From: an uncultured Bacteroidia bacterium
GTDB lineage: Bacteria; Bacteroidota; Bacteroidia; Bacteroidales; F082
Direction of reading: 5' to 3'
Length of the DNA: 64,000 nucleotides
Assembly (NCBI GenBank): GCA_913009755.1
Contig: CAJVWU010000006.1
Location: 1-64,000 of the forward strand
Numbering within the stretch: position 1 is the first letter of the stretch; every line of letters begins with the position of its first letter. The notes under the pieces are model-generated. The model did not search any database and had not been told where the DNA came from. It saw nothing but the letters and a program-made list of their open reading frames with translations. The position numbers and the translations under genes are program-made. Shown here one piece after another: positions 58,424 to 60,901 of the stretch.

Positions 58424-59728
58424 CTATAGATTGAAAGCTTTTTTTACCTCATCAACTTTATTCAATTGTTCCCAGGCAAAAAACTGTACTTCTTTCAGAT
58501 AAACTTTTTCACCGTTACTATTCACCTTTTCAACCGATCCCTTATCCTTGTATGCCAGTTCAACTTCCTCTTTAAAAGGTTGTCTTCCGAAATGGCCATA
58601 AGAGGCCGTTTTTAAAAATATAGGATATTTAAGTCCAAACTGTTTAACGATCTCATAAGGCCGCAGGTCAAACAGTTCCCTTATAATTTCTGCAATCCGG
58701 CTGTCGGACAATATTTTTCCCGAAGCATCATGAACATGGGCAGTGCCAAAAGTATCAATAAAGAATCCGACCGGTTCATCCACGCCGATGGCATAAGCTA
58801 CCTGAACAAGCAATTTGTCGGCAACCCCGGCAGCCACCATATTTTTGGCAATGTGCCGTGCGGCATAAGCCGCCGACCGGTCAACTTTTGAGGCATCTTT
58901 TCCCGAAAAGGCACCCCCGCCATGCGCACCGTGGCCACCGTATGTGTCCACAATGATCTTCCGGCCCGTAAGCCCCGTATCGCCGTGAGGGCCTCCAATG
59001 ACAAATTTACCGGTGGGATTAACCAGAAGCCGGTAATCGGAATCAAACAGTTTTTGAATACGCCCGGGATATTGTCTTTTGACACGCGGAATAAGATATT
59101 CCCAGATATCATTTTTGATCTTTTCCTGCATGGCTTTTTCTTCATCGAAATCATCATGTTGTGTGGAAATCACAATAGTATCAATCCTTTTCGGGGTACC
59201 GTCATCATGGTATTCTAATGTTACCTGCGATTTTGTGTCCGGCCTCAGATAAGTCATCACTTTACCTTCGCGGCGTATTTTTGCCAGTTCGAAAAGCAGG
59301 TCGTGGGCCAGTTCCGAGGTAAGTGGCATAAAATTATCCATTTCGCGGGTAGCATAGCCAAACATCATTCCCTGATCGCCCGCTCCCTGGTTCTCTTCCA
59401 CCTGACGGTCAACACCCTGACGGATATCCGATGACTGTTCGTGCAAGGCGGAAATAACCGCACATGAGTTGGAATCAAAACGGTATTCGGCTTTGGTGTA
59501 GCCGATATGGCGGATAACATCACGTGACACTTTCTGAAGGTCAACAAACGCAGTAGTATATACTTCACCTGCCACAAATACCAGCCCGGTGGTTACCAAC
59601 GTTTCGCAAGCTACTTTTGAATTGGGGTCCTGTTTCAGCATCTCATCCAAAACAGCATCGGAAATCTGGTCGGCTACCTTGTCGGGATGGCCTTCCGATA
59701 CAGACTCCGAAGTAAATAAATATGACAT
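58424..59728 (-). CDS. metK: S-adenosylmethionine synthetase
   Basis: A 434-residue cytoplasmic enzyme making S-adenosylmethionine from methionine and ATP. Landmarks: [20 protein letters not shown] at the N-terminus, [15 protein letters not shown], the P-loop-like [20 protein letters not shown] and [20 protein letters not shown]. Near the C-terminus, [20 protein letters not shown] deviates from the common GHFGR...WE ending, and the tail carries a short extra segment. A SAM-II-type riboswitch candidate in the leader suggests feedback control by the product. Confidence 0.95.
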
Positions 59729-59820
59729 ATCGTATTCTTTTTTAGAAAATTAAATTTAAAATTGAATTATCTTTTTTATTATAATCCTATTCATTTATAA
59801 TTGGGAAAAACTTTGCCTGG

Positions 59821-59884
59821 CAGGATAAAAATTGTTTTAGCATTTTTTTATCGTGGTTGCAAGCAATCAAATCCTTCCACACGA
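59821..59884 (-). promoter_or_regulatory. SAM-II-type riboswitch candidate upstream of metK
   Basis: Read on the minus strand, the leader contains in order GUGG, GAUUUG, CUUGCAACCAC, AUAAA, GCUAAA. The first and third elements form P1 (GUGG at 59877-59880 with CCAC at 59853-59856), and GAUUG in the P1 loop can pair with CAAUU just after GCUAAA to make the pseudoknot. GAUUU, UUGCA, UAAA and GCUAAA with this order and spacing are the conserved core of the SAM-II (metA) aptamer. It lies ~95 nt before the ATG, inside the transcript from the promoter at 59908-59915. Binding is not shown; the match is by eye. Confidence 0.75.
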
Positions 59885-59907
59885 ACGTTTTCCTGAAAAC
59901 GAGAGCG

Positions 59908-59915
59908 CAAAGATA
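59908..59915 (-). promoter_or_regulatory. -7 promoter element (TATCTTTG) for metK
   Basis: The minus strand reads TATCTTTG, an exact TAnnTTTG match, giving a leader of about 170 nt that contains the riboswitch candidate. Confidence 0.6.
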
Positions 59916-59986
59916 ATTATTTGTTGAAATAATAAAAATAAAGGATGTTAAAAAAAGGCTAAAAATTGGAGGGGTGGAAGGGTACC

Positions 59987-60901
59987 TTATTTTTTTGTCA
60001 GCTTCCTGAATATGTCTTCCATTTTCTGTTCGCTTTGCGAAAGGGAAAGCACATGAAATTTATTGTCAACGGCAAACTGAAAAATATCCTGCCTGATGTC
60101 TTTGTTGTCCCGGGCTTCAAGTAGCCATTCCCCTGATTTCAACCGGACTGCATTTTTTATAAAAGGCAACTTCTTCAGTATCGCTTTATCCAGTGTTTCT
60201 TTAAATTCAACTTTAAACCGCAGGGTGCTGCCCGTTAATTTTGAAAGATTTGCCGTAGTGTCGTCAGCAACAATTTTCCCTTTGTCAATGATAATAACCC
60301 GTCCGCATATTGCTTCCACTTCCTGCATGATATGCGTGGAAAGGATCACCGTTTTTTGTTTTCCAAGCTCGGCAATAATCTGGCGAATTTCCACAAGCTG
60401 GTTGGGGTCAAGGCCGGAAGTGGGCTCATCCAGTATCAGTATTTCCGGGTCATGGATCAGTGCCTGTGCCAGCCCGACCCGCTGGCGATAACCTTTTGAC
60501 AATGCACCGATCTTTTTTTTCTGTTCAGGCCCAAGTCCGGTGAGTTGGATGATATTACGCACTGCCTGGTCAGTATTTTTGATGTGTTTGTAAATACGGA
60601 GGACAAATTTCAGATACTCCCTGACGTACATGTCCAGATAAAGCGGGTTGTTTTCAGGGAGGTAACCCATGTATTGCCGTGTTTTCAACGAGTCCTCCTG
60701 AACATCAAATCCTTTTATTGATGCTGAACCGGAAGAAGGTGGAATAAAAGAGGTCAGGATTCTCATCAGCGTTGATTTTCCTGCACCGTTTGGGCCCAGC
60801 AAACCGACAACTTCACCTTTATCAATACTAAGGCTTACCTTATTGAGTGCTTTTTGTGCCCCGTAAATTTTGGTGATATTTTTTATTTCAATGGTTGACA
60901 T
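59987..60901 (-). CDS. gldA: ABC transporter ATP-binding protein, GldA-like
   Basis: A 304-residue ABC ATPase. Walker A GLLGPNGAGKST (~35-43), signature LSKGYRQRVGLAQAL, Walker B ILILDEPTSGLDP and the His switch STHIMQEVEAIC are complete. The C-terminal ~85 residues form the extra regulatory domain of the CcmA/GldA type. The N-terminus and overall sequence fit GldA, the ATPase of the gliding-motility ABC transporter, but the partner genes gldF and gldG are not nearby and gliding cannot be claimed from this gene alone. A TAGTTTTG promoter element lies 20 bp upstream. Confidence 0.85.
   Translation of the reverse strand: MSTIEIKNITKIYGAQKALNKVSLSIDKGEVVGLLGPNGAGKSTLMRILTSFIPPSSGSASIKGFDVQEDSLKTRQYMGYLPENNPLYLDMYVREYLKFVLRIYKHIKNTDQAVRNIIQLTGLGPEQKKKIGALSKGYRQRVGLAQALIHDPEILILDEPTSGLDPNQLVEIRQIIAELGKQKTVILSTHIMQEVEAICGRVIIIDKGKIVADDTTANLSKLTGSTLRFKVEFKETLDKAILKKLPFIKNAVRLKSGEWLLEARDNKDIRQDIFQFAVDNKFHVLSLSQSEQKMEDIFRKLTKK

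Follow-up and report, generated by a model that had tools for sequence, protein, structure and literature searches.

SAM-II riboswitches of the Bacteroides group were included in the work of Corbino et al. in 2005, with B. thetaiotaomicron appearing in a figure legend (PMC1273637), and the SAM-II long-loop family RF01726 was listed for Bacteroidetes by Weinberg et al. in 2010 (PMC2864571). A survey from 2007 reported no species with both SAM-I and SAM-II (PMC2258182). Translation initiation in Bacteroidetes has been found to depend on mRNA structure and on single bases near the start codon (PMC6847099). The ribosomes of Bacteroidota work without Shine-Dalgarno (SD) sequences, which raises the question of how a riboswitch known for SD masking or for terminators would act there. 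In the main texts of openly available papers we found no published description of the leader element reported here, nor one of SAM-II control of metK in Bacteroidota. The finding of the aptamer itself is not new, because it is a routine member of a described family; what the leader adds is a candidate anti-aptamer strand, which offers a concrete and testable answer to how SAM-II acts without SD pairing.

The window (the whole stretch of 64,000 nucleotides that was analysed) contains on its minus strand the metK gene, the product of which makes S-adenosylmethionine (SAM) and scores 521.9 bits against TIGR01034 (cut-off 309.4). Upstream of the gene, cmscan placed RF01726 on the same strand with 69.9 bits against a gathering score of 44, aligned along the full model (positions 1-60 of 60; whole-window E 1.8e-11) and separated from metK by 98 nt. 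This was the sole Rfam match in the window at the gathering threshold, and the sole one with E<=1 within 59000-60200. The features of the locus, in the order in which they would be transcribed, are:

59908-59915, minus strand: TATCTTTG, a Bacteroidota -7 promoter box (TAnnTTTG) recognised in the sequence, 27 nt from the end of the box to P1
59886-59901, minus strand: small 5'-terminal hairpin CGUUUU/AAAACG in the promoter-to-aptamer interval, recognised in the sequence
59827-59886, minus strand: SAM-II (long loop) aptamer, RF01726 (cmscan)
59877-59881, minus strand: 5' strand of the P1 helix, UGUGG, with its partner at 59852-59856 (model structure line)
59858-59867, minus strand: 5' strand of the P2 pseudoknot, AUUGCUUGCA (outer-triplet covariation)
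59852-59856, minus strand: 3' strand of the P1 helix, CCACG (model structure line)
59831-59842, minus strand: 3' strand of the P2 pseudoknot, UGCUAAAACAAU (covariation; GCUAA core in 110/110 loci)
59787-59843, minus strand: possible 18-codon frame opened by the AUG of the pseudoknot strand, unlikely to be functional (frames vary among 110 loci)
59824-59831, minus strand: UUUUUAUC, predicted to pair with GAUAAAAA (59845-59852) as the inner helix of the alternative hairpin (minimum-energy fold)
59802-59819, minus strand: proposed anti-aptamer strand CAGGCAAAGUUUUUCCCA, complement of the aptamer 5' half UGUGGAAGGAUUUGAUUGCUUG (duplex, minimum-energy fold)
58424-59728, minus strand: metK, methionine adenosyltransferase, 434 aa, the controlled gene (TIGR01034, ORF)

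The exact borders of P2 are our own reading. A sequence-only reading of this DNA had proposed a SAM-II-type element in the metK leader, and the proposal is borne out by the covariance model, by covariation of P1 and the pseudoknot, by the promoter position and by the gene association described below. The SAM-II blocks that it named do follow one another in the order given, on the minus strand, the core blocks GAUUUG, UUGC and GCUAAA all being found in the aptamer, and the element lies between a -7 box and the gene as it had said. It had put the element at 59821-59884, which is the right site but a few bases off, and had left the strand unstated. The sequence evidence supports the assignment of the element as a SAM-II-type aptamer in the metK leader.

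The box at 59908-59915 leads us to infer that transcription starts within the 27 nt before P1. Of the 110 loci compared here, 107 have a TAnnTTTG box no more than 70 nt upstream of P1, where 7.7 would be expected, with a median spacing of 15 nt. The hairpin that fills the interval in the window (-2.8 kcal/mol) is no more stable than chance (z +0.16); among the 32 leaders with at least 20 nt from box to P1, 22 fold below -3 kcal/mol in this interval and the mean z is -1.77. Such promoter-aptamer hairpins recur in relatives with differing sequence, and the 5'-terminal hairpin perhaps serves mRNA stability.

The association with metK was surveyed in 455 genomes, 395 from across the phylum and 61 relatives, with the window's genome (G000) in both sets. 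At the chosen E-values matches were obtained in 63 of the 395 and 50 of the 61 genomes, of which 57 and 49 had matches above the cut-off. At all 105 distinct places above the cut-off, metK follows on the same strand. Five of the 11 places below the cut-off also precede metK; the other six have no metK in the DNA stretch examined and were excluded from the 116 distinct places, which left 110 loci for the leader tests (in L059 the metK start was placed from the alignment, and the expected codon reads CAT). A later search of the order, in 393 genomes partly overlapping the earlier ones, gave above-cut-off matches in 263, and 60 further loci, picked by us among the top matches listed and mostly one per family, all precede metK. 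The element is thus conserved in related metK leaders, all 165 above-cut-off matches opened in Bacteroidota genomes being ahead of this gene. Among named or described organisms, above-cut-off RF01726 stands at 47 of 80 metK loci, the carriers including Flavobacterium, Tenacibaculum, Porphyromonas, Capnocytophaga and many Bacteroidales; it was found at metK in none of seven records from Hymenobacter, Pontibacter and Algoriphagus. In the 33 described metK loci without above-cut-off SAM-II (within L126-L196), a -7-like box is often seen by eye about 30-70 nt from the metK start, and because it lies so near, the leader there is apparently simply short; in one of the 33 (L180) a SAM-II core is visible by eye. 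One of the six below-cut-off places without metK, a 31.9-bit SAM-II match in a genome from another class of the phylum (G156, L093:1975-2030), has GCUAAAAAGG near its 3' end; it lies about 100 nt ahead of the gene for a metY-like protein of 436 residues, which by eye resembles O-acetylhomoserine sulfhydrylase.

The P1 stem and the H-type P2 pseudoknot of RF01726 are kept, with covariation, among the 110 loci. One P1 pair is U-A in 61 loci and A-U in 49. The outer triplet of P2 is CUG/CAG in 47 loci and UUG/CAA in 28; by hand count it pairs fully, with G-U allowed, in 84, the remainder being unpaired in that fixed register, so that the pseudoknot which the sequence-only reading had called possible now has covariation behind it. 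By eye, GAUUUG, UUGC and GCUAAA occur in most relatives' matches, AAUUUG in many, and UUUA or shortened blocks in some. The GCUAAA core is shared by the alpha-proteobacterial SAM-II family (RF00521); NUGCUAA is present in 108 of the 110 loci, i.e., with U before GC, which we take to be a difference from the crystallised metX SAM-II sequence. Large insertions were seen between P1 and the A-rich strand in family f7 (many of L061-L087), and inside the P1 loop in family f4 (L031, L072, L081, L085, L089-L092), in which GUG also takes the place of the AUG found in most other loci.

The sequence-only reading had proposed a check of the other met genes of this genome for the same motif. The window's genome has a single SAM-II match above the cut-off, and metH has SAM-I (RF00162, 79.7 bits) instead, at G000:C46:12188-12296 (L202:2689-2797), about 105 nt ahead of the gene. 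A candidate second SAM-II copy, a lone 22.2-bit match with E 0.15 and no metK nearby, was dismissed. SAM-I is also present in 49 of 67 genomes chosen among those with SAM-II at metK. At 20 SAM-I loci that were opened, the N-termini of the next genes were by eye mostly those of methionine-pathway enzymes and none was metK-like. Eight of these neighbours were checked with models: metH (in the window's genome), a metF-type reductase, O-acetylhomoserine sulfhydrylase and one SusC-type protein scored above the cut-off; the other four, namely the N-terminal part of a metH, a protein resembling MetX and proteins of the cystathionine lyase/synthase and homoserine dehydrogenase types, fell short of the cut-offs of the models they matched. 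In Euzebyella (L161), SAM-II at 848-930 stands before metK and SAM-I at 2332-2451 just after it, for the neighbouring transcript; in G029:C1 the two elements, at 1273624-1273726 and 1273897-1274021, lie in divergent leaders 170 nt apart.

In the aligned leaders listed, GUCAAAUC and GCAAUC can be read downstream of the aptamer, which are complements of aptamer GAUUUGAC and GAUUGC. The duplex energy of the aptamer 5' half (P1 strand to UUGC) with the first 75 nt or less of the leader was compared with 200 dinucleotide-preserving shuffles per leader, using energy models that leave out pseudoknots and co-transcriptional folding. Over 110 loci the mean z was -2.01, with 87 loci below -1 and 52 below -2, against -0.33 for the reversed aptamer (29/110 below -1), -0.17 for DNA upstream of the aptamer (17/110) and +0.17 for the first 75 nt of metK (5/110). 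The 65 representatives with leader similarity below 0.6 gave -1.96. The test was repeated on 59 loci fetched after it had been fixed (the 60 later loci less L254, which is without the UUGC-A-CC pattern), and gave a mean z of -1.86, with 43 loci below -1 and 3 at or above zero; the controls stood at -0.02 (reversed aptamer), +0.03 (upstream DNA) and +0.10 (first metK codons). Described loci with the aptamer gave -1.53 (30/44 below -1, 6/44 above zero), 3 of the 47 being too short or patternless and some records being genomes of the first set. A whole-fold version, in which loci with the start codon more than 170 nt away were dropped, gave -2.61, with 91 of 107 loci below -1. Loci that did not fall below z -1 numbered 23 of 110 and 16 of 59.

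The complementarity is in part specific to each locus. When aptamer strands were swapped among 102 of the 110 loci (57 distinct strands; loci with long inserted loops dropped), the own strand beat foreign ones by a mean of 0.94 z (Wilcoxon p 3.5e-14, relatedness not corrected for); it was outright best in only 6 of the 102 and within the best tenth in 35. Lineage-specific changes of the aptamer loop are mirrored in the leader as GAGUAG/CUACUC (L009), GAGUUGA/UCAACUC (L109) and GAGAUGA/UUAUCUC (L096), and the leader thus appears sometimes to carry the matching change. The end of the putative strand precedes the start codon by a median of 29 nt (quartiles 26 and 34; 104 loci), and by 37 nt (quartiles 31 and 45.5) in the 59 later loci. 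From these comparisons we conclude that an anti-aptamer strand is under selection in the group. Two related ideas were set aside: pairing between the leader and the 3' strand of the aptamer (GCUAAAG/CUUUAGC) is clear in L003, L065 and L073 and weak overall (mean z -0.57 against 0.00 in the control), and a link of a P1 base to UCCA or UCCU in the leader was a modest trend only (UCCU in 36 of the 49 loci of A type and 26 of the 61 of U type).

The window's locus taken alone makes a weak case for the anti-aptamer, the evidence being modest. Its duplex UGUGGAAGGAUUUGAUUGCUUG/CAGGCAAAGUUUUUCCCA has -16.5 kcal/mol and z -2.14 against shuffled leaders, and 38% of foreign aptamers suit its leader as well as its own does. 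The gap from the proposed strand to the start codon is 73 nt, against the medians of 29 and 37 elsewhere; in its congeners L047 and L059, z is +0.32 and -0.97. The related 3'-strand pairing test gave z +0.51 in the window and does not support the inner helix GAUAAAAA/UUUUUAUC of the minimum-energy fold.

Several other explanations were weighed. Purines dominate the aptamer strand and pyrimidines the leader, and foreign aptamers also pair with the leaders better than shuffles do (mean z -0.98), as though the complementarity reflected base composition, or a general stabilising hairpin and no switch; the effect is not accounted for, however, by dinucleotide-preserving shuffles or by the controls with reversed aptamer, upstream DNA and coding sequence, and own aptamers outdo swapped ones, and we regard this explanation as unlikely. 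The leader has more C than G at 107 of 110 loci, compared with 61 of 110 for the upstream region, an excess which is partly forced because the leader pairs with a purine-rich strand. The classic SAM-II output proposed for Proteobacteria, in which SAM binding permits a downstream intrinsic terminator or hides the SD, has precedent in the putative terminators at many SAM-II RNAs (PMC1273637, PMC2258182) and in the SD masking supported for S. meliloti metA (PMC9373788). Here terminator-like sites after the aptamer at -6 kcal/mol occur in 5 of 104 loci, above the 0.6% of shuffles, but the other 99, the window among them, have none, and a limit of -4 kcal/mol or better likewise finds intrinsic terminators between P2 and metK in 5 of 104 loci and none in the window leader. 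With the aptamer held, the structure of the leader alone is near chance (29/104 loci below -1, mean z -0.33 against shuffles; as in the terminator test, loci with the start codon more than 120 nt away were left out of the 110). Read by eye, the 20 nt ahead of the window's metK ATG contain nothing resembling GGAG, and SD sequences are reported to be absent from Bacteroidetes mRNAs (PMC6847099). The classic output is accordingly rated very improbable. A further candidate, in which the freed leader strand sequesters the metK start, was also rejected: the unpaired probability from -15 to +10 goes from 0.55 in the whole fold to 0.51 when the aptamer is left out, being then lower by more than 0.1 in 19 of 104 loci and higher in 2, and by these fold predictions general start-codon sequestration is not supported as a rule. 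Because leader structure is close to that of shuffles, terminators are rare and there is no general start masking, neither of the usual platforms suits most loci.

The opposite sign, an ON switch in which the long anti-aptamer hairpin is itself a terminator that SAM prevents, would be suggested by terminator-like hairpins at -6 kcal/mol in the SAM-free fold of 25 of 104 loci (8% in shuffles), and in about a quarter of the loci these would give an ON switch in the species concerned. Such a hairpin is lacking in the other 79, the window included, the T-tract content of the leaders is not above that of shuffles (6.17 vs 6.33), and metK would increase with its own product; among the readings considered we hold this one to be the least probable. 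In two of the 47 described loci, both from Bacteroidales (L121:945-1005 and L132:941-1000), the aptamer match overlaps the metK start, an arrangement of which no case was met among the 110 or the later 60 loci; there the pseudoknot itself could mask the start, and because the aptamer meets the start with no room for an anti-aptamer strand, these loci favour translational control. It is also conceivable that the AUG in AAUGCUAAA is a real initiation codon, of a leader peptide or of metK itself, which SAM hides. NUG stands at this position, with A-rich surroundings, in 108 of 110 loci (98 AUG, 9 GUG, 1 CUG; the remaining two read AAG) and in all 60 later ones (54 AUG, 4 UUG, 1 CUG, 1 GUG); by eye, the AUG of L121 is in frame with metK four codons before the usual start and the frame of L132 stops on the metK start, and in S. 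meliloti metA an SD that lies within the SAM-II RNA serves a start codon 74 nt downstream (PMC9373788). Against this, the frames run from 3 to 441 codons among the 110 loci, their phases to metK are even (32, 35, 43), L018 alone reads into metK in frame, and the peptides are similar only among close relatives. The U of the AUG may be conserved because it can pair with the A of UUGCA in P2. An upstream start is quite improbable in our view, and in the window the frame is probably incidental. A leader-peptide attenuator was rejected as well, since length, phase and peptide vary over the 110 loci and no conserved biased peptide was found.

We consider it likely that the element is a SAM-II riboswitch in the 5' leader of metK which turns metK expression down at high SAM levels; what we infer are the binding of SAM, the OFF direction, the long hairpin as the SAM-free state and the coupling step. 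Transcription would begin shortly before P1. With SAM bound, P1 and the P2 pseudoknot would hold; with SAM scarce, the strand made next (59802-59819) would pair with the aptamer 5' half, and aptamer and leader would form a single long hairpin, the expressing state. Since the leader is complementary to the aptamer beyond shuffles and prefers its own aptamer, the SAM-free state is probably such a competing hairpin, which would dissolve the aptamer. Coupling would be by means other than SD masking: our best guess is that the SAM-bound form alters ribosome access to the SD-less start region or exposes the C-/U-rich, G-poor strand for Rho loading, the composition of the freed strand being one that would suit either effect. 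A broader proposal, which we would back and doubt in equal measure, is that in SD-less Bacteroidota SAM-II has acquired a platform of its own, a co-evolving anti-aptamer strand which typically ends 25-45 nt before metK and competes for the 5' strands of P1 and P2, so that SAM would switch metK between a long hairpin and a state in which the C/U-rich leader lies open to the ribosome or to Rho; in a few species the pseudoknot would meet the start codon directly, and the same cells would use SAM-II for metK and SAM-I for methionine synthesis.

Compared with known systems, the aptamer shows no difference from RF01726 as described (PMC2864571), with a full-length match of 69.9 bits, the same phylum and a cis-regulatory position; the anti-aptamer strand and the metK association were not found in the main text of that paper, its supplements aside. 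The alpha-proteobacterial SAM-II metA element RF00521 (PMC1273637) likewise has P1 and the P2 pseudoknot, a promoter just before P1 and a methionine/SAM target, but the target is metA there and metK here, and here terminators are few, and the window shows no SD-based platform. In the S. meliloti metA SAM-II (Scheuer et al. 2022, PMC9373788) the start codon also lies well past the aptamer, 74 nt there and 45-283 nt here (median 62.5), whereas the SD inside the riboswitch and the terminator reported there are both unseen in the window. SAM-I (S-box, RF00162) shares ligand and genome with the element and differs in its fold and its targets, which are metH here and metY-, metX- or metB/C-like genes elsewhere. 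That one genome can carry both SAM-I and SAM-II, with different targets in the cases opened, updates the 2007 survey (PMC2258182) and provides a natural comparison of two sensors for one ligand.
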